Virus record (IMG/VR): IMGVR_UViG_3300030329_003326
Span: 1 to 38,618 of that record
DNA length: 38,618 nt
Source of the DNA: a virus
Direction: 5' to 3' (one strand)
Part shown: positions 2,126-38,618 of the stretch, one piece after another
How the letters are laid out: each line of letters starts with the position of its first letter
How positions within the stretch are numbered: the first letter of the stretch is position 1
Position numbers and translations under genes: made by a program
The notes under the pieces: generated by a model
Databases searched by the model: none
Seen by the model: the letters and a program-made list of their open reading frames with translations, nothing else
Told to the model about the DNA's origin: nothing

Positions 2126-2866
2126 TTAATTGAATATCTCGTCAACCTCTTTATTTGTCTTCTTTTTTGACCCGATATCTTTTCCGAACTCGTTATCTTT
2201 TTCCATCTCAGGACTGCTAACGAACTCTCTCGATGATTCCCATAGCTGCGTAGCCGTGCTAACATCAGCATCTGATGCTGCGGATTTAGGCTGCGCTTTA
2301 GCTTGAATCACGTGATACTTGTTACCACCCTTCTCCTCAACAGCAGAAGATATTTTAAAATAGCTTCTCCAAGAAGGTCTGATATACATAAGATTAGCAT
2401 TAAGATTCTTAGCAAATTTTGCTGAAGCACCCTTAAATGTAATCATTGCCGGCATTATAGAGTCTTTCTGTAGCACTAAATAATGGTAGCTTTTGACAGC
2501 GTGAGAGCCGTCATCTTTCCACGCGAACTCTTGAGGTGTAATCAAAGAGCCGTCTTCCCAATGTTTACCATCTCTGCTAAACTTTAAGACCTCTCTTCTG
2601 CCCGATTCTCCAACCTCTCCAAATACGCGCGCAGTTGTGTAGTAAGAAACGATAACACATTCAAAGCTATTACCATATATTTCTCCGGTAACGGGATTTA
2701 CAAAATCCCCCGCTTTAACGTTTTCGCCTTCAAATTCAGACATATCAGATATCTTTTGCCATAATACAATACTAGGCACCCTAACATCTGACTTATCAAT
2801 TTCCATTGCATAACCCTGTGGTACTGCTATATTACTACTTTGCTTTGTTGTTATTTTATCACTCAT
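2126..2866 (-). CDS. Probable single-stranded DNA-binding protein
   Basis: A 246-residue soluble protein, ATG at 2866 with an AAGGA site upstream. It has a beta-rich central region (FECVIVSYYTTARVFGEV, later YHYLVLQK and PAMITFKG). A low-complexity, charged C-terminal stretch ends in EVDEIFN. An acidic tail with a terminal aromatic residue is typical of SSB proteins that recruit partners. It sits between the small 140-residue protein and the primase-helicase in the leftward replication operon, where phages often carry an SSB or annealing protein. I see no diagnostic family motif, so the call rests on size, tail and context. It would protect ssDNA and recruit the primase-helicase or nuclease. 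Confidence 0.45.
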   Translation of the reverse strand: MSDKITTKQSSNIAVPQGYAMEIDKSDVRVPSIVLWQKISDMSEFEGENVKAGDFVNPVTGEIYGNSFECVIVSYYTTARVFGEVGESGRREVLKFSRDGKHWEDGSLITPQEFAWKDDGSHAVKSYHYLVLQKDSIMPAMITFKGASAKFAKNLNANLMYIRPSWRSYFKISSAVEEKGGNKYHVIQAKAQPKSAASDADVSTATQLWESSREFVSSPEMEKDNEFGKDIGSKKKTNKEVDEIFN

Positions 2867-6328: not shown

Positions 6329-6898
6329 TTATGTAGGGTCAGCATCAGCAGTGTAAGTCATTTTTTCTTTTCTTAAATATATTTCATCTAAAAACATAAT
6401 ATCGCCTGAATTGTTAGCAATCATACCTATTGTAAAATAAGCTCCAACGGCTGTCGCTGTCCAAATAAGAGAATGGGCTTGAACCCACTGCCCTTCAATC
6501 ATATTAGTAGCGTCAACTCCTATAACATCAGAATACGCATAGTCATTGTTAAACAGCGTAGAGCCTACAGCAACCCAGTAAGCAGTAGGTTCTGCCGTAG
6601 ACGGTACAGTAGGTATTAGCATTTTAAAGCTAAGTTCATATTCCGTCCCCACAACTAAGCTCAAATTAACAAAAGAAGTTTTATTAGCACCGGTTCCTGC
6701 TCCAACCATTTTTACGGAATTATCGCCAGTAGAGCTATAATCGCTTGACTGAGAAATAATGCAATTACAAGACCCGTCAACCGTGTTGTCTCTCCAATCG
6801 CCTACGCCACTCCCTATAGTCACAGTAGATGCTGTAGAGAAAGCATCACCTAGTACGTTATCCCCGTAAAGCGTCGGGTCTTTTCTATAAGTTGTCAT
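6329..6898 (-). CDS. Carbohydrate-binding-module-like virion protein
   Basis: A 189-residue, Ser/Thr/Gly-rich, beta-rich protein. The middle (TEYELSFKMLIP ... WVQAHSLIWTATAVGAYFTIGM ... FLDEIYLRK) matches the strand pattern of jelly-roll carbohydrate-binding modules such as CBM4/9/22. It closes the virion gene block, and its ATG overlaps the stop of the 2195-residue internal protein. It probably decorates the tail or capsid and binds host surface glycans, making it the best receptor-binding candidate in the genome. No separate long tail fibre or endosialidase gene is seen. Confidence 0.6.
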   Translation of the reverse strand: MTTYRKDPTLYGDNVLGDAFSTASTVTIGSGVGDWRDNTVDGSCNCIISQSSDYSSTGDNSVKMVGAGTGANKTSFVNLSLVVGTEYELSFKMLIPTVPSTAEPTAYWVAVGSTLFNNDYAYSDVIGVDATNMIEGQWVQAHSLIWTATAVGAYFTIGMIANNSGDIMFLDEIYLRKEKMTYTADADPT

Positions 6899-9800
6899 TA
6901 TTCTAACTCCTCTTCAGCTTCTCTTAATAACATTTCATAATTTTGCTTAGCATCAAAAAGCTTGCCTTCGTATAACTCTGGCTCTAATTCTTTAAGCCTC
7001 TGAAAAGCTTGGTAGTGCAGAAAAGCCTCAGCTTCCTCAGCGTTTGATATTTGAGTAGTTACCTTTCCTTGTGTTTCTTTAAGATATTGAACAAAATCTT
7101 TATTATCTAAGTCTTCTGCTTTAAATAAAAAGCTATAATCTCTTTTAGGGTTAAAAAGCCAATCAGTCTCTAGGTTATACGTTTTAATAAATTTATGCGC
7201 TGATGTTTCTGCTAACCCTTCTGTAATTAGTTGTACATTTTCCAACATCATATTTTGAACCATCATTCTAACGTCCTCATCAGAGTCTGATTTAGCCCAT
7301 CTCTTAGAAAGCTTAAGATTTCCATTTTCGTCTAAGTTTAACTCAAGTCGCTCTCTACCATTTTCTCTGATAACGCGACCTTGGTCATCTCTAGCAATAT
7401 CAAAAATCATATTATTCATTAGCCATATAAAATTATTTTGACCGTTAGCAGCATTTACAAGCCATTTATCTATCCTACTAAGAGGTGCCCCCATTACTGT
7501 ATTTCTATTTTCTTCAAACTTATCAAACAAATTCAACCTAACAAGCTCGTCGACTATAAGGTTTCTTGCCTGCTGCCAAAAAGCAGGGTCTTCCATAATT
7601 TGAGAATACTTTTCAGGCACGTTACCCCAAAAAGCGCCTATTTCAGCAGAGTTCATAGTGTTTAGACCAAAAAGAGACCCAACTCCCTGTTTTTTAAGCA
7701 CAGGCTCTCCAAACAAATCTAATCTCGGTAAATTAATAGTGTAGTCATTAAAATAGTCCTTACCCATAATTAAATCTGAAATATTATTAAGTTTTTCCCT
7801 AGCCTCTTTTTCAGTATAGCCATTATCTTCCATAAAACTTGGAAGCTTTTTTTCTCTTTCTTCGTTAGCATAATTTTTTAAGCCTTCCAGAACGGATGAC
7901 GCTGTATCTCCCCCAAATACCTCTGCATACCCTCCAAAGAATGTTTTTTCAAATCTACGCCAAAGAATATTAGGGTCTTTTGTAAAAGAATACCTGCTAG
8001 GATTCACAAGACTAACATCTCTATATCCTTGTGTTTTATTATTATAGTCTTGACTTTCATAATAATAAGGGTCTATAATAGAGCCATAACTAAGCATCAT
8101 ATTAGGCATTAAAGAACTCCTAAAAGTCTCTAGCCAAAAATCCCACATACTTGTATTTCCGTGAATCAAATCTGAAGCCATATCTATTCCGCCTACAAAC
8201 GGATTCTCTAAATAAGTGTACGCAAGAGAAATCATCCCATTCTCAAATCTTTCCCAATCGCTAGGGTCTCCCTGCCCATCTAGGATAGACCCTAAAATAG
8301 ACATTATTTCATTTCCGGGAGAAAAACCTCTTGGGCTCCAACATTCAGTAGTGCCATCCAGAGTATAAGCGCAAACATCTCCGGGGTTTATGCGCTTTAT
8401 TTCATATATCATTTTCTCATAGTCACTCAACATCTCATAAGGCTTTGCCTTGAAATAGCCTCTGTACCCCTGCTCATTAGCCTCATCTAAAGGCGCCGGA
8501 GTACCATCCTCTCTATAGCCACCATACATATTATTAGCAAGAGAATACATTGTATAAGCAAATCCTGAGGCGGTAGTTTGTTTTGATGCTACGTCCGCAA
8601 ATATACCCCAATCTCCATATGCTAACCCTTTACCCATACCTTTAAACCCATCTTTACTTAGGAAACCTATGCCCGGAGTTCTATGATATATAGTCTTACC
8701 TATATTTACAGGGGTATTAAAAAATGGTATCCAAAACTGAAAAAATGTACCGACATTTCCAGACCTTTGCCTACTAGCCCAATCCCCTAGAGCTCCTAAT
8801 TTTGCTTGAAATGTAGAGTATTCAGCGCTTGCTATAGCTTCGTCTACTATTTTTTTTGGAGGGTCTTTTATAAGACTGTCAAACTCTCTCTTCCACTCTT
8901 TAGTCCCCGGTCTATAGCCGTTCTTTTTTAAATGCCTGAAAATATATTGTGCAACAAACGCCTCCTCGGCTGGCTGCCTGAAAAATATATCTATCGCCGC
9001 CTGACTTCTTTGAGGCGTCCTTATTAATTTTCCCCAAGCTCCGCCTATATATCCGTCGACACTAAATCTTTCTTTGGTATAAAAAGCATCTGTTTTTAAG
9101 TAGTTCTTATCCTCATATAGCATAGCCTTAATATTCTTATAAACAGTTCCGTGCTCACCTCTGTACTTACCACCAAAATAAGAACTAAAAGCTTGTTTTG
9201 TATATGCTAACGTTTCTCCAAAGAAACGAGACCTTTCAGGGGTTACTTGCATCCAAGCAGGTAGACTTTCCCACTCTTTACCGGTCAATTTTGAATATAT
9301 GTAGCCAGAAGGTCTTCTTATCGCAGGGGTAAGGGCGTATCTATCTAAGTTTGTTAGCACCGCGTCATAAAACGCAGATATAGGCTTATCTGTATATAAT
9401 AAAGCTTGATTACTTGAATTACCAATCGTACTTCTCACTACAGCACCTATAGAAAATAGCTTAGCATTCCTAGAAACCTCAACAAGAGAGTTTATTAAAT
9501 TATTAATTTTAGTAGGACTTTTGTCTTTCGACTGTAGCATTTTATTTACATCATCTAATATAAAATTTCCTTGAGCCGTAATAAGCTCGCCTTCACTAAA
9601 AATCATCGCAAGCTCGTCAGAGACAGGGTGCTTATGTATATTAAGCTTTCTGCCTGTAGTAGCACTGTGGGCGGTTAGAGACTTAAAAAATTTGGTAAAC
9701 TGAGACATAGCTGCTTCGTACTCGCTCATTCTCATTGTATGCTGATTATTTATAAGATTCCTACCTATAGCAGTCATAATTCTTTCAGCCGAAAGATATT

Positions 9801-12800
9801 CAGCCGCAGTAAACTCAAAGTTTCCAGCCGCAAGCTCATCATCTGTAACATTTAAAACCTTTCTAAGAACAGATTCTATAGTTTCTTTTTGTATAGATTC
9901 ATCATCTATATCTTTCCAGTTTTTCTTACCTAAAGCCCTTATCTCTTTATTTATCTCTTTACCTAGGAATCTACCAAGGTTTCCTATAAAATTTCTTAAA
10001 TCTTCAGGATATTTATCTAGATTAATATTTCCAGTATAATTATAAGCTTCATCCATTTTGCCGCTAGGTGGAGTAGGTTCTCCACCTTTCCCAGTAGGCT
10101 TGTTTGTTGCTGTTTGATTAGCTTTTCTGATATTGTCTTGAATAACTTTAAATTTAGAGTTGTACGAGTCCCCTATAAATCTTCTCAGTATTTCATTGTC
10201 ATCTTTATTTAATTTATTTTTACCAAAAAAGGTCTTAGTTAGGCTATTCCAGTTATTGTCTAGATATTTTTGCCAAGCATACAAATCTTTGTTCATATAA
10301 TCAGGGTCTGCAATAAATTTCTGCAGTAAAGTCCCAACAACCTCGTCTAATTCTTTTGAGACTAAGTCTATATTTTCTGGAGTTATTCCTTCCTTTTTTA
10401 ACTTTTCATCAAGAGCCTTTTTATTCTTATTATCAACCTTACCTTTTTTTAAAAAATTATTCATAAATTTTCTACCTTCTGGCTGTGCTAACAGTGCAGT
10501 TAGATACTCTTTAACGTTCCCTCCTAATATAGCCACCTCTCTAGACTCATAAGGAACAGCGAGGCTTCCTGTGCTTCCAAAAGTATTTAAGAAATTATTA
10601 TACGATGTATTGGCATCAGAAAGTTTCTTTTTCCCCCACTGATAACCCTTTACTCCGCCGTAAGCCATAAAAGGGCTTATCATTAAGCCGTCAAAAGTCA
10701 GCTCTCCAATAAGCCTAGATATCTCTTGACTATTCTGCTCACTCTCGGGAAGATTAGAATACGTTACGATATCTCCAATTTTATTGCCAGAAGTGTACAA
10801 CAAAGAGCCAAATATAGCAGTTCCAAATGTTTTTACAGCGTATTCATAAGCTTTCGGAGAAGCAGTCTTCATCCATTGCAAGCCTTTAGCTCCGGAAACG
10901 GTCAATGCTATATTCATAGGAGTTACAAGCTCTCCACCTTTTTGACCAACGGTAGTAAAGCCTTTCATAAAATTTGTCCAAGCTCCTACATCCATAGACA
11001 TAGCATCCATAGGGAGTAATCCTTGGTCGTCCATATCTTTGACAAACTGAATAATCTTATCGTCACTGTATAGTATATTTTGGTAAAACCAATCTTCAAA
11101 TATAGAACGATGAGACCACACTTCTCCTCCTAAAGCGTCTTTCCAGATAGTAGGACTGTAAAACGCAGACACTATTGATTCAAGTATTCCATAATCCCAA
11201 GAATCTGTCATAGTTTGCAACTTAAAAAATTCCCTCATACCTATAATTCCGCCAGCTTCTATCTCTTCTTTTTGCTTTTTGCTCCCAGCTACTGTCCTTT
11301 CTCCGTATTCTCTAGTCCAAGCCTTTTCAAAGGAGCGAAACTCGTTCATTATAGAAGGTATATTATTTTGACCAGAATAAGCTTCTTCAATTTCTTTTAA
11401 CCTATTTATGCCTCCTTGTTCAGAAAAAGCTGTATTAGCTAGGAAAAACTTTAAATTTCTTAAATACCTAGCTTGAGTTCTTACATCAGATTTTGTTAGC
11501 ACGTCTGCGGCTTCTAGGTCAGCTTTACTATATTCAGAACCATCGTCCCATCCATTATAATAATAAAACTCTTGCTTACTTAAAGGCTCCCAATTTGGAT
11601 TGCCTTCTGTGAATTGAAGGTACATATCATAAGCATCTGCCCTGCTAGGAACGACATAATCTCCAGTTTTATCAAAATAAGTATCAACTAAAGCTTTCAT
11701 CAGATTAACAACTTCTCTTTTATTCTCATCCCCGTAAAGAGTATTAAAAGAGACAATCTGTGCTTTGACTTTCTGCATTTCCTGCTCAATAGAATAAGGG
11801 CTCACCCAATTAGGACTATCTAGGTCTGCACCCCTTTCGACGCCTTGAAGCCATTGTACTTGCTGCATTATCTTTTCCCAAGCTAAATACTTTTCAGTAC
11901 CTACCTCCATACTGGTTCCATCTGTGTATTGCGCTATTATTTTATCAGGAACACTATGAGTTCTAGTTACACTTAGAACAGTTCTACCTAAGTCGTCAAT
12001 AGTTCTAGTAAATTCAAAAACATCCTCGCTAAATATTTCACTTATAGGTAAACCGTCTTCAGGGTTAATCCAGTTTAAAACTCCTTTCTGAATACTTGTG
12101 CCTCTTCCAGATAAAATCTCTGCCATACTAACATCACCCTTTTGTATAGATTGCATTAAAACAGGGTCTTTTCGAATCTCGCTAGGAGTGATAGATACGG
12201 GCTCACTATATATAAAAGTATTGCCTAGCTTAACTTTTCCAGCTTCATAATAATTTTTTAAATCAAGTTCTGTGCCTCCAGCCCCAAAAACAGACGAAGA
12301 AGACAATATCTCTTGGATATTCACCTTCTTTGTAATACCTTTATTACCTTCTTCTGCGGTATAGTTTGAAAAGGTTACTTCTTGACCATCGGAGCTAACA
12401 GAAGAGACATATATACCATAATCTAAACCGCCCCACTCTTCATCTATTTTGTAAGGGTCAGGGTAAGGTTTCCCGTCTATAAATAACTGCATAGTATGTC
12501 CACCCCCTATCTGAAATCCTTTATTTTCAGATTCAGGAATAGGAACCCAGAGCCCATCGCCACCCTTATCATCCATATTATTTATATACTGGTACTTATT
12601 CAGCTCTTTTGCAATCGCCAACTTAATATCCTCATCTTCTGCATTATTGTATTCATCAATTAAATTATTCAAATTCCATATAGCCTCGTCCCACTCAGCC
12701 CTAAGAGTTTCTTGCATTTGGACAGTCATATTATCCCATCCGGGTATTCTATTTATACCCTTTTTAACTTTCTTGATTTCACTACCATCAGGGTTGAAAT

Positions 12801-13485
12801 GTATATATTCTCCCCCATCGTCTACCATAGGTATAAATCTGGAATTTTCTCTAATCATTGTTGGCTGACCCCCTCCGCTTAATCCGTACGCAAATCCCTT
12901 AGGGGCGAGTACATATTGTATTGTTCTAGGGTTGCCAAACTCATCTTCAACATTAATAGTATGAAAATTTTTAGAATAGTCTGTATTTGGGTCAAACCCA
13001 TTTACAGATACGAAATTAAAATCTTCAGCAAGGTAGTCGAAAACCTCATCTCTTGCATTGATTTTGTCGTGGAATTTAAAGTTTATATCATCATACTTAC
13101 TAACTTCTCCGGGGCGCTTTCCGTATCTTTCTACATACTCGGCTTCACTCATCCTTGAAGTAATGCTTTTATTAAGAGTCTCGTCAAATTTATAAGAACC
13201 AGTTAGACCTTGAGCTACCATACTTGGGCTATAAAGATTAGTGCTCATCCCAATTATTTTACTAGGAAGGTTCTCTAAGTCTACATTAAACTCTAAATCT
13301 CCCCAATTAAGTGCAGTTGTAGTCTTTTTCTTCTTCTTTTTCTCAGACAGAATAAGAGCCCTCGCATCGTCCCCTGAGAGTTTTTTATCTTTTTCAATAT
13401 CGGGAGATACGTCAGCTACGCTGGTTTTAATTTCCTCGTCTTCTCTTTCGTCTAACTGAGAATATAGTTCGTCTGTTTTAGCCAC
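6898..13485 (-). CDS. Giant internal virion (ejection) protein, 2195 aa
   Basis: The longest gene in the genome, with a GTG start at 13485. The N-terminus is acidic and Lys-rich. A hydrophobic stretch lies near residues 850-900 (KTFGTAIFGSLLYTSGNKIG). Around residues 1340-1700 is a region (KLFSIGAVVRSTIGNSSNQA, then FFQFWIPFFNTPVNIGKTIY) resembling the large-polyvalent-protein LPD38 module found in giant phage ejection proteins. The C-terminus is acidic and helical. Its place after the nozzle and two coiled-coil proteins matches the internal core proteins of T7-like and N4-like podoviruses, which are ejected ahead of the DNA. I see no clear lytic transglycosylase, protease or RNA polymerase motif. 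Confidence 0.75.
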   Translation of the reverse strand: MAKTDELYSQLDEREDEEIKTSVADVSPDIEKDKKLSGDDARALILSEKKKKKKTTTALNWGDLEFNVDLENLPSKIIGMSTNLYSPSMVAQGLTGSYKFDETLNKSITSRMSEAEYVERYGKRPGEVSKYDDINFKFHDKINARDEVFDYLAEDFNFVSVNGFDPNTDYSKNFHTINVEDEFGNPRTIQYVLAPKGFAYGLSGGGQPTMIRENSRFIPMVDDGGEYIHFNPDGSEIKKVKKGINRIPGWDNMTVQMQETLRAEWDEAIWNLNNLIDEYNNAEDEDIKLAIAKELNKYQYINNMDDKGGDGLWVPIPESENKGFQIGGGHTMQLFIDGKPYPDPYKIDEEWGGLDYGIYVSSVSSDGQEVTFSNYTAEEGNKGITKKVNIQEILSSSSVFGAGGTELDLKNYYEAGKVKLGNTFIYSEPVSITPSEIRKDPVLMQSIQKGDVSMAEILSGRGTSIQKGVLNWINPEDGLPISEIFSEDVFEFTRTIDDLGRTVLSVTRTHSVPDKIIAQYTDGTSMEVGTEKYLAWEKIMQQVQWLQGVERGADLDSPNWVSPYSIEQEMQKVKAQIVSFNTLYGDENKREVVNLMKALVDTYFDKTGDYVVPSRADAYDMYLQFTEGNPNWEPLSKQEFYYYNGWDDGSEYSKADLEAADVLTKSDVRTQARYLRNLKFFLANTAFSEQGGINRLKEIEEAYSGQNNIPSIMNEFRSFEKAWTREYGERTVAGSKKQKEEIEAGGIIGMREFFKLQTMTDSWDYGILESIVSAFYSPTIWKDALGGEVWSHRSIFEDWFYQNILYSDDKIIQFVKDMDDQGLLPMDAMSMDVGAWTNFMKGFTTVGQKGGELVTPMNIALTVSGAKGLQWMKTASPKAYEYAVKTFGTAIFGSLLYTSGNKIGDIVTYSNLPESEQNSQEISRLIGELTFDGLMISPFMAYGGVKGYQWGKKKLSDANTSYNNFLNTFGSTGSLAVPYESREVAILGGNVKEYLTALLAQPEGRKFMNNFLKKGKVDNKNKKALDEKLKKEGITPENIDLVSKELDEVVGTLLQKFIADPDYMNKDLYAWQKYLDNNWNSLTKTFFGKNKLNKDDNEILRRFIGDSYNSKFKVIQDNIRKANQTATNKPTGKGGEPTPPSGKMDEAYNYTGNINLDKYPEDLRNFIGNLGRFLGKEINKEIRALGKKNWKDIDDESIQKETIESVLRKVLNVTDDELAAGNFEFTAAEYLSAERIMTAIGRNLINNQHTMRMSEYEAAMSQFTKFFKSLTAHSATTGRKLNIHKHPVSDELAMIFSEGELITAQGNFILDDVNKMLQSKDKSPTKINNLINSLVEVSRNAKLFSIGAVVRSTIGNSSNQALLYTDKPISAFYDAVLTNLDRYALTPAIRRPSGYIYSKLTGKEWESLPAWMQVTPERSRFFGETLAYTKQAFSSYFGGKYRGEHGTVYKNIKAMLYEDKNYLKTDAFYTKERFSVDGYIGGAWGKLIRTPQRSQAAIDIFFRQPAEEAFVAQYIFRHLKKNGYRPGTKEWKREFDSLIKDPPKKIVDEAIASAEYSTFQAKLGALGDWASRQRSGNVGTFFQFWIPFFNTPVNIGKTIYHRTPGIGFLSKDGFKGMGKGLAYGDWGIFADVASKQTTASGFAYTMYSLANNMYGGYREDGTPAPLDEANEQGYRGYFKAKPYEMLSDYEKMIYEIKRINPGDVCAYTLDGTTECWSPRGFSPGNEIMSILGSILDGQGDPSDWERFENGMISLAYTYLENPFVGGIDMASDLIHGNTSMWDFWLETFRSSLMPNMMLSYGSIIDPYYYESQDYNNKTQGYRDVSLVNPSRYSFTKDPNILWRRFEKTFFGGYAEVFGGDTASSVLEGLKNYANEEREKKLPSFMEDNGYTEKEAREKLNNISDLIMGKDYFNDYTINLPRLDLFGEPVLKKQGVGSLFGLNTMNSAEIGAFWGNVPEKYSQIMEDPAFWQQARNLIVDELVRLNLFDKFEENRNTVMGAPLSRIDKWLVNAANGQNNFIWLMNNMIFDIARDDQGRVIRENGRERLELNLDENGNLKLSKRWAKSDSDEDVRMMVQNMMLENVQLITEGLAETSAHKFIKTYNLETDWLFNPKRDYSFLFKAEDLDNKDFVQYLKETQGKVTTQISNAEEAEAFLHYQAFQRLKELEPELYEGKLFDAKQNYEMLLREAEEELE

Positions 13486-30486: not shown

Positions 30487-30684
30487 TTAAATTCTCCTTT
30501 GATATGATAAATATGATATTCGGTTTTGAGTTTCAAAATAATGCTGGCGCTGTATAAAGGGGGTGGCTAGCGCGAGGTGGCTTACCCCCCCCGCATTTGC
30601 TCCTTCGCGTAGGAGGTCGGCGGATTTGTCTGTACGCGTACTACACGGCTCTGCTGTCCTTCGCGTTAGGGTCGTCCTTGTCAT
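30487..30684. promoter_or_regulatory. GC-rich non-coding gap between terS and terL operon
   Basis: A 198-base gap. Positions 30541-30700 are near 57% GC by hand count, against mid-30s for the genome. It holds a C8 run, a GGGGGT/ACCCCC pair, repeated GGTGGC and several ACGCGT/CGCGTA sites, including TACGCGTA (30633-30640). A 65-codon leftward frame spans it, but has no ribosome binding site and a translation unlike a natural protein. This is the expected place for a pac site recognised by the small terminase, or for a promoter. Confidence 0.5.
30503..30520. promoter_or_regulatory. Palindromic operator before terL operon
   Basis: AATATGATATT (30510-30520) is preceded by a second TATGATA half-site 10 bases away (30503-30509). 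The same 11-mer lies at 31398-31408 and, with central C, at 5294-5304. A leftward TTGAAA (30536-30531) stands about 17 bases upstream of a TATTTA hexamer. Probably a regulator site controlling the late operon. Confidence 0.5.
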
Positions 30685-31236
30685 CTATACGCGTCCGACG
30701 ATTTCATTAAGGTCGCTCTTCTTCTCTCTTCGCGTGGGAGGGCTGACTTCAGTCTTCGCGTAGGAACTGACACCGCTTCCGAAATTAATATTGATATCGA
30801 CGTTAGCACCGGACGTGCGCTTGTCTGCGTAGCGGTCTCTGTTCAGTGATTTCATTCGGAATATCCTCTCGGTAACGTTCTGTTTCAACAACGCGTTACG
30901 CGTGCTGACGCGTTCGAGCTCCATTAATTCAACTTCATCTGTGATTTTCCGTGCTAACGCGTAGGCTGACTTGAATGCCTTGTCAACGCGTAAGGCGATT
31001 GCTACGTCACTCTTACTGATGCCGACGATATCACAAGCTTTTGAGATTGATACATTGCCTTCGGTAATGAAGGTTTCGATGAGCTTTTGATATTCCGGCT
31101 CCAGCTTATGCGTAAGAGCTTCGAGTCCTTTTTGGCTACTTTGTGTCGGTAGTAAATTTACATTTTTCGACTCTAAAGCCGACGATTTAGTGTTTTTTTC
31201 GGATTTTTTGTCCAATTTCATAGCAAAATCTACCAT
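30685..31236 (-). CDS. terS: Terminase small subunit (probable)
   Basis: About 183 residues. The first clear ATG is at 31236; a TTG at 31248 and an ATG at 31221 are alternatives, and none has a good ribosome binding site. The central part is a helix-turn-helix type DNA-binding domain (FITEGNVSISKACDIVGISK, then SDVAIALRVDKAFKSAYALA), as in small terminases that recognise the packaging site. The C-terminal part is low complexity and basic. Position just upstream of terL supports the call. The gene contains an unusual cluster of ACGCGT sites and codons ending in C or G. Confidence 0.7.
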   Translation of the reverse strand: MVDFAMKLDKKSEKNTKSSALESKNVNLLPTQSSQKGLEALTHKLEPEYQKLIETFITEGNVSISKACDIVGISKSDVAIALRVDKAFKSAYALARKITDEVELMELERVSTRNALLKQNVTERIFRMKSLNRDRYADKRTSGANVDININFGSGVSSYAKTEVSPPTRREKKSDLNEIVGRV

Positions 31237-36720: not shown

Positions 36721-37016
36721 TAACAATGCCAATGTACACGTTCATAACAATAGTTGTGTTAGCATTTATAATTACGCTAATAATGGTTTATTTTGCGGGG
36801 AAATATATGATGCTAACTAGCCAATTCGACTTTCTCGAAGATGAGATAGAGAGAACTCTTGAAGAAGAGAAAAGCAAAAGTAAACCTCATTGGTACTCTG
36901 AAGAAAAAGAACTCAACCAAGGTTGGATTGAGGCTCTCCAATACTCATTAAGACAAGTAAGATTTGCTAGAATATTAACCTCAAAGGAGATTGACAATGT
37001 CAACAAAAAATCATAA
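36717..37016 (+). CDS. Small membrane protein, 99 aa
   Basis: ATG 36717 overlaps the previous stop (ATGA) and has AAAGGAG upstream. One N-terminal membrane segment (residues about 6-28, TFITIVVLAFIITLIMVYF) is followed by an acidic coiled-coil cytoplasmic or periplasmic domain (FDFLEDEIERTLEEEKSKSK). It is expressed early, so superinfection exclusion or membrane remodelling is more likely than lysis. Function not established. Confidence 0.65.
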   Translation: MITMPMYTFITIVVLAFIITLIMVYFAGKYMMLTSQFDFLEDEIERTLEEEKSKSKPHWYSEEKELNQGWIEALQYSLRQVRFARILTSKEIDNVNKKS

Positions 37017-37161
37017 TCCAATAACACATACGTATTATTACTTACGTATTAATCGATTCTTATGGACTCGATTTAAGTCTGCTTGCGCAAAGCGTAATGA
37101 GACTATGAGAGACATTATCGTCAAGCTTGTTAAAGCTTGGACAGAAAAAAACGAAATGTAA
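36997..37161 (+). CDS. Ribbon-helix-helix (CopG-like) regulator, 54 aa
   Basis: MSTKNHNPITHTYYYLRINR, then a helix-turn-helix core (FLWTRFKSACAKRNETMRDI and IVKLVKAWTEKN). A short strand followed by two helices, with conserved spacing, fits the MetJ/Arc/CopG fold. AAAGGAG precedes ATG 36997, which lies inside the end of the membrane protein gene. Such dimers bind short palindromes, so it is a candidate regulator of AATATGATATT or the 41-bp elements. It is the last early gene. Confidence 0.6.
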   Translation: MSTKNHNPITHTYYYLRINRFLWTRFKSACAKRNETMRDIIVKLVKAWTEKNEM

Positions 37162-37172
37162 AAACAACGTTG

Positions 37173-37254
37173 TGATTAGCATCGGAAACGTTTCTACACA
37201 AACCACGGCGTCTACGCAAAGGTAGTTGTAGAAATTAAAGTACGATGCTAATCA
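37173..37254. repeat. Nested inverted repeat at convergent gene ends
   Basis: Outer 12-bp arms TGATTAGCATCG (37173-37184) and CGATGCTAATCA (37243-37254). Inner 8-bp arms TTTCTACA (37191-37198) and TGTAGAAA (37227-37234). A GCG-TCTA-CGC mini-hairpin sits in the centre. The palindrome ATCATTAATGAT (37251-37262) overlaps the end. It lies where the early operon and the nuclease gene meet tail to tail. A bidirectional terminator is plausible, although no U-run is present. Confidence 0.7.
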
Positions 37255-37568
37255 TTAATGATTATCCACTTACTCAATCCGTCCTTCACATCATTCACAG
37301 AACACGCGACAAAAGAAATCGCGTTATGCCTTCGCTTCTCTGCTAACCATTCTTCTTGTATGCGCGTAGCTTTCTTACCTTCGCGCTTTACCTCAATCGC
37401 TATGTACGTACCATCGGGCGCGCACGCGACTATGTCACTCATACCTCTGCGCCCGTACGTACCTATTGTTATGACGTCCGCAGAAAATCCGTGCTCACGT
37501 AAAAACTTCATAATCTGGTTTTGAATTTGTTTTTCAGTTAGCACCTTCTTCTTTTTTTTCAATTTCAT
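37248..37568 (-). CDS. VRR-NUC nuclease
   Basis: 106 residues, the full length of a stand-alone VRR-NUC enzyme. Motifs: TEKQIQNQIMKFLREHG at the start, catalytic Asp45 in RGMSDIVA, then Glu59 and Lys61 in IAIEVKREG, and Gln71 in ATRIQEEWL. These enzymes cut branched or Holliday-like DNA. ATG 37568 has GAGGG upstream. It lies downstream of the primase-helicase and next to the iteron array, so it probably resolves replication or recombination intermediates before packaging. Confidence 0.88.
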   Translation of the reverse strand: MKLKKKKKVLTEKQIQNQIMKFLREHGFSADVITIGTYGRRGMSDIVACAPDGTYIAIEVKREGKKATRIQEEWLAEKRRHNAISFVACSVNDVKDGLSKWIIIND

Positions 37569-37571
37569 TAT

Positions 37572-37765
37572 ATTACCCTCTGTTACCTTTTTGTTACCCT
37601 AAATTCTCTTCGATGTAACCTTGTAACCTCATTTTTAGCACCAAAAACAAATTGAACAACGTCTCTATATATGCACAAAAAAAGGGTTACAAGGGTTACA
37701 AAGGTTACAACCGAAGGTAACGCAAAGGTTACATTTAGGTTACAACCTAGTAAATTTAGGTTACA
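37572..37765. repeat. GGTTACA iteron array, candidate replication origin
   Basis: Six exact GGTTACA copies (37685, 37694, 37703, 37727, 37738 and 37759) point rightward. Two exact inverted copies TGTAACC (37614, 37622) and two near copies TGTTACC (37581, 37592) point the other way. An AT-rich stretch (37629-37680) lies between the two groups. Imperfect copies lie at 37572 and 37716. Spacings of 9, 9, 24, 11 and 21 bases put many copies on nearly the same helical face. Two iteron groups flanking an AT-rich core right after an initiator-type primase-helicase is the layout of SaPI origins. It also overlaps a leftward frame that I consider non-coding. Confidence 0.75.
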
Positions 37766-37766
37766 A

Positions 37767-38618
37767 TTACTCTTCATATAGCTTTTTAGCCACCAATTTT
37801 TGAATATCAAAGACTCTTGCTTTACGTGTTGCATCTTGAAGTCGCACCGCTTTATAGCCAATATAATAATCCATTTTACTTATCTGCTTAACGAATTCAC
37901 TATGTGATATTACCTCCCCCTCAAAGCTTGTTTCTCTTGCCCATTTTTTAAACTTTGGATAGATAGTTGGAGTGTGTAAATATAACTGAGTAGTCTCTAA
38001 GTTTGTATCAATTACATCATCTTCCAGTATCCCAGATTGCCTCATAATTAGCATCGCTTCCAGTATATTGTCGACAGCAGAGCGAGTCTCTCCGAGAATA
38101 GTTTGAGCCTCTAACTGCGTTTTCATAACAACTTCTTTCTCAGCTTCTAATTTCAAAGGAATGCCGTTAGCATCATAAAACTTCTCTAACAGGGTTAATC
38201 CTGTATTTATCATTGCAATATTATGACGAACTCTACCATTACCTTTAATGTTATCCTTAAAAACTTGGAACAATTCCTCATCAGTAAGAGTTAAAGTCCA
38301 ATTCAAAATAGCATTACCAAGTTTACTTATCGGCAACTTAGATAGTTTGATAAAGTTATCTAAATATTGGTGCGCGTCTAGTTTATTAACAAATACATCT
38401 GCGCTACGCTCACGTAATGCGGGCTCATCAAAGCCCATTTCTCCTATCACAACTGCGGGAGCGTATATCTTAAACTCTCGCGTGCTAAGGTCTTTTGTTC
38501 CTCTCATCGAACTTTCATTATCATATAAACCACGAATCATTTTACTAATCATCTTAATTTTACTATTATCAAATAGTGCGGGCTTATATTCATCGTAAAT
38601 AAGTGGGAACATATTTGT
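37767..38618 (-). CDS. Primase-helicase, C-terminal 283 residues (same gene as 1-2072)
   Basis: The right-hand end of the primase-helicase. Its frame at 38618 is the frame at position 269, so joining the ends restores one gene. This part holds Walker B (IYDEY) and the rest of the ATPase (GTKDLSTREFKIYAPAVVIG, then FDEPALRERSADVFVNKLDA), which carries an Arg-finger-like site. A C-terminal winged-helix-like region (DYYIGYKAVRLQDATRKARV) may bind the iterons just past its stop. The apparent start at 38612 is not the true start. Confidence 0.88.
   Translation of the reverse strand, partial: TNMFPLIYDEYKPALFDNSKIKMISKMIRGLYDNESSMRGTKDLSTREFKIYAPAVVIGEMGFDEPALRERSADVFVNKLDAHQYLDNFIKLSKLPISKLGNAILNWTLTLTDEELFQVFKDNIKGNGRVRHNIAMINTGLTLLEKFYDANGIPLKLEAEKEVVMKTQLEAQTILGETRSAVDNILEAMLIMRQSGILEDDVIDTNLETTQLYLHTPTIYPKFKKWARETSFEGEVISHSEFVKQISKMDYYIGYKAVRLQDATRKARVFDIQKLVAKKLYEE
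38350..38618. repeat. Terminal direct repeat, right copy
   Basis: Exact copy of bases 1-269. It marks the overlap by which the contig closes into a circle. Confidence 0.97.

Follow-up and report, generated by a model that had tools for sequence, protein, structure and literature searches.

The viral contig IMGVR_UViG_3300030329_003326 (38,618 nucleotides; "the window" below denotes this whole stretch) begins and ends with the same 269 bases and is therefore taken as a complete genome of 38,349 bp, circular or circularly permuted. A gene spanning the junction of the contig ends encodes an 884-amino-acid primase-helicase, whose archaeo-eukaryotic primase (AEP) domain is assigned by Pfam to AEP-TOTE and whose stop codon lies at 37767-37769 on the - strand. 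The 198 bp separating this stop codon (37767) from the start of the following VRR-NUC nuclease gene (37568, - strand) are filled by an array of short repeats (iterons), which extends from 37581 to 37765, begins 1 bp past the stop codon, and ends 13 bp upstream of the nuclease start. The array comprises eleven copies of a heptamer in two opposed groups, seven on the primase (right) side and four inverted on the left; in the reading direction of the primase gene, a TGTAACC group is followed by a core and a GGTTACA group. A preliminary description of the sequence had delimited a candidate replication origin at 37572-37766, and the six direct GGTTACA and the inverted TGTAACC/TGTTACC copies that it placed within 195 bases after the primase-helicase stop were all located as exact copies (Table 1). 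Here we assess this candidate origin together with its presumed initiator.

Ten copies of the four heptamers fall within 195 bp, compared with a largest cluster of 3 among 200 dinucleotide-shuffled versions of the genome. When any 7-mer was allowed, GGTTACA formed the strongest local cluster in the window (8 copies; 3 to 5 in shuffled genomes); several of the shuffle p-values are the lowest that the number of shuffles allows. The stretch between the two groups had been called AT-rich, a label that is true but modest, not striking, since its AT content is 71% versus a genome value of 62% (89th percentile).

Comparison with close relatives shows that the array is under selection. In an IMG/VR contig encoding a primase 96% identical to that of the window (L009/L011), 0 of 70 iteron bases are changed compared with 24 of 128 other bases of the segment (p=1.6e-5); all ten iterons and the core piece GCATATATAGAGACGTTGTT are identical. 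The degenerate GGTAACG copy at 37716, absent from the preliminary list, is not kept in this relative, which suggests that it is probably not needed. In L010/L013, whose primase shows 68% identity along its length, the array has the same place and orientation, its unit is GGTAACA throughout (11 copies), and the core motif CATATATA is kept (L010). A change of unit in both arms together, with the layout kept, is what one would expect when the protein that recognises the site is diverging. The inner triple or pair of iterons at 9-bp pitch is also found again in relatives.

These comparisons bear on the idea that function resides in a stem-loop of single-stranded DNA, with the repeats merely as its arms, as proposed for the AEP initiators of pRN1 and phage BIP-1. 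The likeness is real in that ORF904 of pRN1 and the BIP-1 protein also combine AEP primase, helicase, and winged helix in one polypeptide with the origin 3' of the gene, and pRN1 requires a stem-loop 3' of orf904 (PMC4234260); moreover, the window segment folds as single-stranded DNA better than its shuffles (z -3.4). However, the stem-loop proposed for pRN1 and BIP-1 (about 100 nt in the pRN1 type) is without iterons, which the window segment has, and inverted iterons yield such a fold automatically. In addition, the conserved unit is the heptamer and not the arms, since spacers vary freely and iterons do not, and a hairpin does not explain direct repeats at 9-bp pitch. We therefore regard a stem-loop as almost certainly not the element in question.

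Arrays of this kind recur behind distant primases. Three primases 26-29% identical to that of the window, from L133, L134 (the L039 contig), and the haloarchaeal Halorubrum virus CGphi46, are each followed directly 3' by an array, with the units GGTCACA, GGTTACA, and GTAACAT (GTNAC type); L133 and L134 were the sole additions from alignment-based and further relative searches of viral contigs. In L039 (IMGVR_UViG_3300031952_000028, 2041-2506), the entire origin-like block occurs twice in tandem behind the primase, about 325 bp apart. Among chromosomal AEP-TOTE primases of defence systems, an array was found in 0 of 8, which argues that the array accompanies a replication role and not the AEP-TOTE domain as such; the window primase, which is phage-encoded and accompanied by an array, does not belong to the TOTE conflict (defence) systems.

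The expectation that GGTTACA arrays adjoin primase-helicase genes in other phages was borne out when viral contigs were searched for GGTTACA in three copies at close spacing; the search returned at least 119 loci, near-duplicate contigs included. Among the matches listed, 16 of 18 open reading frames (ORFs) of at least 350 amino acids with a 3' end no more than 200 bp from an array encode primase-helicases (VapE, DUF927, D5_N/Prim-Pol, DUF5906, and Toprim), the other two being integrases. Three-copy GGTTACA arrays directly 3' of integrase genes (L038, 7960-7987; L043, 2838-2865) are perhaps arm-type sites. The control motif ACATTGG gave 56 loci, three of which adjoin primases of the VapE/Prim-Pol type, so this position is also taken by arrays that differ in sequence. 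With GGTTACA again represented by the matches listed, the comparison near large ORFs gave 23/37 for GGTTACA versus 3/18 for ACATTGG (Fisher p=0.002) and is conservative because control-motif arrays also adjoin primases, whereas the same comparison over all intergenic arrays was borderline (p=0.05).

A motif-free test, in which the commonest 7-mer was scored in the 450 bp after the stop, detected a significant inverted array 3' of 12 of 13 primases versus 3 of 196 control regions; the 13 include the two close relatives of the window and two loci found through relatedness to its primase. All three positive control regions overlap a single cluster in Paracoccus phage R3, which has no array directly 3' of its primase but, beyond the next gene, seven copies of ATTATAC. 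Rapid switching of the unit is seen again among VapE proteins with 49-92% identity to the L082 protein, whose arrays are of GGTTACA, GGTAACA, GGTGACA, TGGTACA, or GGTTCC type. Most VapE genes sampled in bacterial genomes have a significant array, and D5_N genes in bacterial genomes have one in only 2 of 9 cases.

The segment is of a known kind, an iteron origin 3' of its initiator gene, as in the Staphylococcus aureus pathogenicity islands (SaPI) and other phage-inducible chromosomal islands (PICI) and in phage A2. SaPI/PICI origins lie immediately behind the initiator gene and have an AT-rich core with an iteron group on either side (PMC6092414), and the window matches this layout, as the preliminary description had proposed, with its opposed sets (7 + 4) around the core immediately behind the primase-helicase gene. 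It differs in belonging to a phage with its own terminase, portal, major head, and internal virion proteins, not to a satellite relying on a helper phage for its virion, and in uniting primase (AEP-TOTE) and helicase in one protein. Both SaPI Rep and SCCmec Cch2 use their C-terminal domain to bind iterons located 3' of the gene that encodes them (PMC7581432). Cch2 is thus similar as a helicase-initiator with 3' iterons and C-terminal binding (PMC7581432), but its iteron is AAGTG and it lacks a fused primase. The alpha protein of satellite phage P4, which also binds repeats at its origin (PMC4234260), differs in its Toprim-type primase.

Among phages, Lactobacillus phage A2 (NC_004112) carries a GenBank rep_origin annotation directly 3' of its AEP primase, at a site with an 81% AT core between inverted ACGGGAG/CTCCCGT repeats. 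Like the window, A2 and its relatives phi105, CL2, phiSP15-1, and LP-HM00113468 have an AEP primase-helicase (NrS-1-like in this group) followed by an inverted iteron array, which in A2, CL2, and LP-HM is soon followed by a Holliday-junction resolvase, where the window has the VRR-NUC nuclease; the iteron sequence and the primase subfamily of this group are unlike those of the window. A module of single-stranded DNA-binding or small protein, primase, array, and resolvase or nuclease recurs in Listeria, Lactobacillus, and other phages (L275, L276, L278-L280, L282) and in the window.

A further parallel is offered by phage NrS-1, whose polymerase starts primer-free DNA synthesis at 5'-TTTGGTTA-3' (PMC8718748, PMC7102993). 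In the NrS-1 genome, the polymerase gene is followed directly by an array of GGTTACACTTT units that includes this start motif (as TAACCAAA); the commonest 7-mer there occurs in 13 copies. Two genome copies of the motif and a possible origin are mentioned in PMC7102993, and the words "iteron" and "repeat" are absent from the main texts of PMC8718748 and PMC7102993. NrS-1 resembles the window in the GGTTACA-containing array behind its gene and perhaps in its AEP domain, which may be related; its unit is longer, its copies are more scattered, and its array overlaps an annotated small ORF. This ORF, NRS1_29 (AB746912; L281 7098-7499), coincides with the array and may be spurious, or else the NrS-1 array may lie within a gene.

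The NrS-1 case raises the question of whether the window iterons are instead single-strand template sites at which the AEP domain starts, with double-strand docking elsewhere, a view that could be combined with an origin bound by its initiator. In addition to the NrS-1 start motif lying inside its array, SCCmec CCPol-MP is known to start at iterons (PMC7581432). Yet the window iterons are precisely phased and inverted, such arrays also occur beside Toprim-type and DUF927 proteins, and other AEP phages have iterons unrelated to GGTTA (ACGGGAG in A2, CTTCCAA in SP15-1). The window array holds no exact TTTGGTTA, sharing the GGTTA part alone; one exact copy stands elsewhere in the window, and near-matches to the whole 8-mer are no more frequent there than expected by chance. 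Template sites of this type are therefore a very unlikely explanation.

For the protein side, the last 283 residues of the primase-helicase were modelled together with four relatives. Residues 181-283, with a predicted local distance difference test (pLDDT) score of about 88 except at the very end, are predicted to form a helix, two short strands, two helices, and a two-stranded wing, that is, a winged helix, in agreement with the winged-helix-like C-terminal end anticipated earlier. SaPIbov1 Rep (8tch) is among the best structural matches of the modelled C-terminus, alongside other winged helices with similar scores; its Z is 8.2 over 167 residues reaching into the linker helices, a value near 8 being at the edge of the aligner's informative range. 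A search of the C-terminal 283-residue sequence profile against solved structures returned no match, and the full-length model (mean pLDDT 41.6) was not used. The AEP domain matched the NrS-1 type by profile (E 2.5e-12), although this profile contains L039, which has the NrS-1 HBD domain.

The conservation and covariation of the array, the arrays 3' of other primase-helicases, the A2 rep_origin annotation, and the NrS-1 array all support the earlier proposal of an origin beside its own initiator. We consider it highly probable (roughly 0.87) that the segment is the phage replication origin and that the adjoining AEP primase-helicase is the initiator binding its iterons. In the mechanism that we propose, the C-terminal winged helix would bind each GGTTACA heptamer on double-stranded DNA, occupying a run of three sites spaced 9 bp apart on one side and an inverted pair on the other, and two helicase ring assemblies would then face each other across the core. 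The core, with its T run and CATATATA, would melt and expose template, on which the AEP primase domain could start new strands. If the NrS-1 rule of starting just upstream of the recognition site applies, the GGTTA strands of both groups would direct synthesis into and across the core, which fits two diverging forks.

Several observations weigh against this reading. Cumulative GC skew of the circularised genome, suggested earlier as a check, lends it no support: the curve has a maximum, not a minimum, near 37.2 kb, where the coding direction also switches, and it was rejected as origin evidence because the turn tracks gene direction. Only two close relatives carrying the segment were found. 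The expectation that relatives with the same primase would carry the array held for L009, L010, L133, L134, and CGphi46 but failed for the large Vibrio/Pseudomonas phages SHOU24, Lana, UAntarctica, and K478b, which have related primases and no array directly 3' of them; the Lana and K478b records also list a DNA polymerase nearby. The 283-residue model is of low confidence as a whole (mean pLDDT 59.9), and other winged helices score similarly against its C-terminus, such as pCW3 TcpK bound to oriT (Z 8.3-8.4).

The remaining adverse point is a small conserved ribbon-helix-helix (RHH) gene nearby, which stays near the array in L009 (5e-37) and L010 (6e-8). RHH proteins as a class recognise and bind short repeats, and the array could be an operator or partition site for this protein (36991-37161), governing transcription or segregation and not the start of replication. 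The array sits between the primase and VRR-NUC genes rather than in front of the RHH gene, which speaks against such a role, as does the recurrence of arrays beside primase-helicases with differing neighbour genes. No RHH relative turned up next to the arrays of L133, L134, CGphi46, and NrS-1, no ParA-like partner was found among the proteins scanned, and sigma-70-like promoters are no more frequent than expected by chance. An RHH-bound site is thus very unlikely, and an origin served by the primase-helicase remains our preferred explanation.

The features of the locus and the neighbouring genes are collected in Table 1. No DNA polymerase family was recognised among the window proteins; the notion in the preliminary description of a phage lacking its own polymerase is nevertheless uncertain, since NrS-1-type AEP proteins can themselves act as replicative polymerase (PMC8718748). 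As regards its description of the phage as lytic, no integrase was matched among the window ORFs scanned, and Rfam and tRNA searches of the window gave no matches. Between convergent gene ends, a very stable hairpin at 37168-37258 (-36 kcal/mol as RNA, z -7.2; no Rfam match) has an outer stem, GATTAGCATCG/CGATGCTAATC, that is mostly kept in L009 (6360-6490), with a different interior. The second strongest 7-mer cluster of the genome, at 30550-30980, is locally G+C-rich, repeats the words TTCGCGT and ACGCGT, adjoins a putative small-terminase region, and is possibly a packaging site. An ORF of 2195 amino acids at 6898-13485 has no PHROGs match.

Table 1. Features of the candidate origin and its neighbourhood (window coordinates).
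Feature	Position	Strand	Remarks
Primase-helicase, N-terminal 690 aa	3..2072	-	AEP-TOTE primase domain (PF22548, E 5e-37); Walker A motif GQAGSGKS
Pam3 gp34-like protein	2126..2866	-	PF23977, 4e-11; upstream of primase; probable single-stranded DNA-binding protein, judged by gene position
Small RHH gene	36991-37161		ParG/Arc-like; near array
VRR-NUC / Holliday-junction-resolvase-like nuclease	37248..37568	-	Next gene after primase, just past array; start 37568
Outer left cluster	37581..37598	-	Two inverted TGTTACC (37581, 37592); unchanged in L009
Inner left cluster	37614..37628	-	Two inverted TGTAACC (37614, 37622); unchanged in L009
Core	37629..37684	.	56 bp, 71% AT; T run and CATATATA; proposed melting site
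Inner right cluster	37685..37709	+	Three exact GGTTACA at 9-bp pitch (37685, 37694, 37703)
Degenerate iteron GGTAACG	37716..37722	+	Altered in 96% relative
Iteron GGTTACA 3	37727..37733	+	Exact copy; unchanged in L009
Iteron GGTTACA 2	37738..37744	+	Exact copy; unchanged in L009
Iteron GGTTACA 1	37759..37765	+	Exact copy; outermost, adjoins primase stop; unchanged in L009
Primase-helicase, C-terminal part, 283 aa	37767..38618	-	Helicase end and modelled C-terminal winged-helix domain (model residues 178-283); proposed initiator

Less expected than the type of origin are its commonness in phages, the frequency of GGTNAC-like units, the speed with which the unit switches, and the presence of the NrS-1 start motif inside such an array. 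We tentatively suggest, as a possibility less probable than its opposite, that heptamers of the GGTNACA family and its neighbours are a common iteron of many unrelated phage primase-helicases and that the middle bases of this iteron, by switching quickly from one relative to the next, make up a code of initiator-origin specificity that can be read; in AEP systems (NrS-1 and possibly the window phage), the iteron may serve both as duplex docking site and, after melting, as start template for primer-free synthesis.

The analysis assigns a specific candidate origin and initiator in a phage genome known from sequence only. An origin layout that PMC6092414 describes as confined to phage-inducible islands proves widespread among phages that encode primase-helicases, a haloarchaeal virus among them, and the start motif of NrS-1 polymerase, given in PMC7102993 as just two genome copies, gains a setting within an array. 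Many initiator-iteron pairs with differing iterons can be collected automatically, and the recognition code of their winged helices could thereby be decoded.
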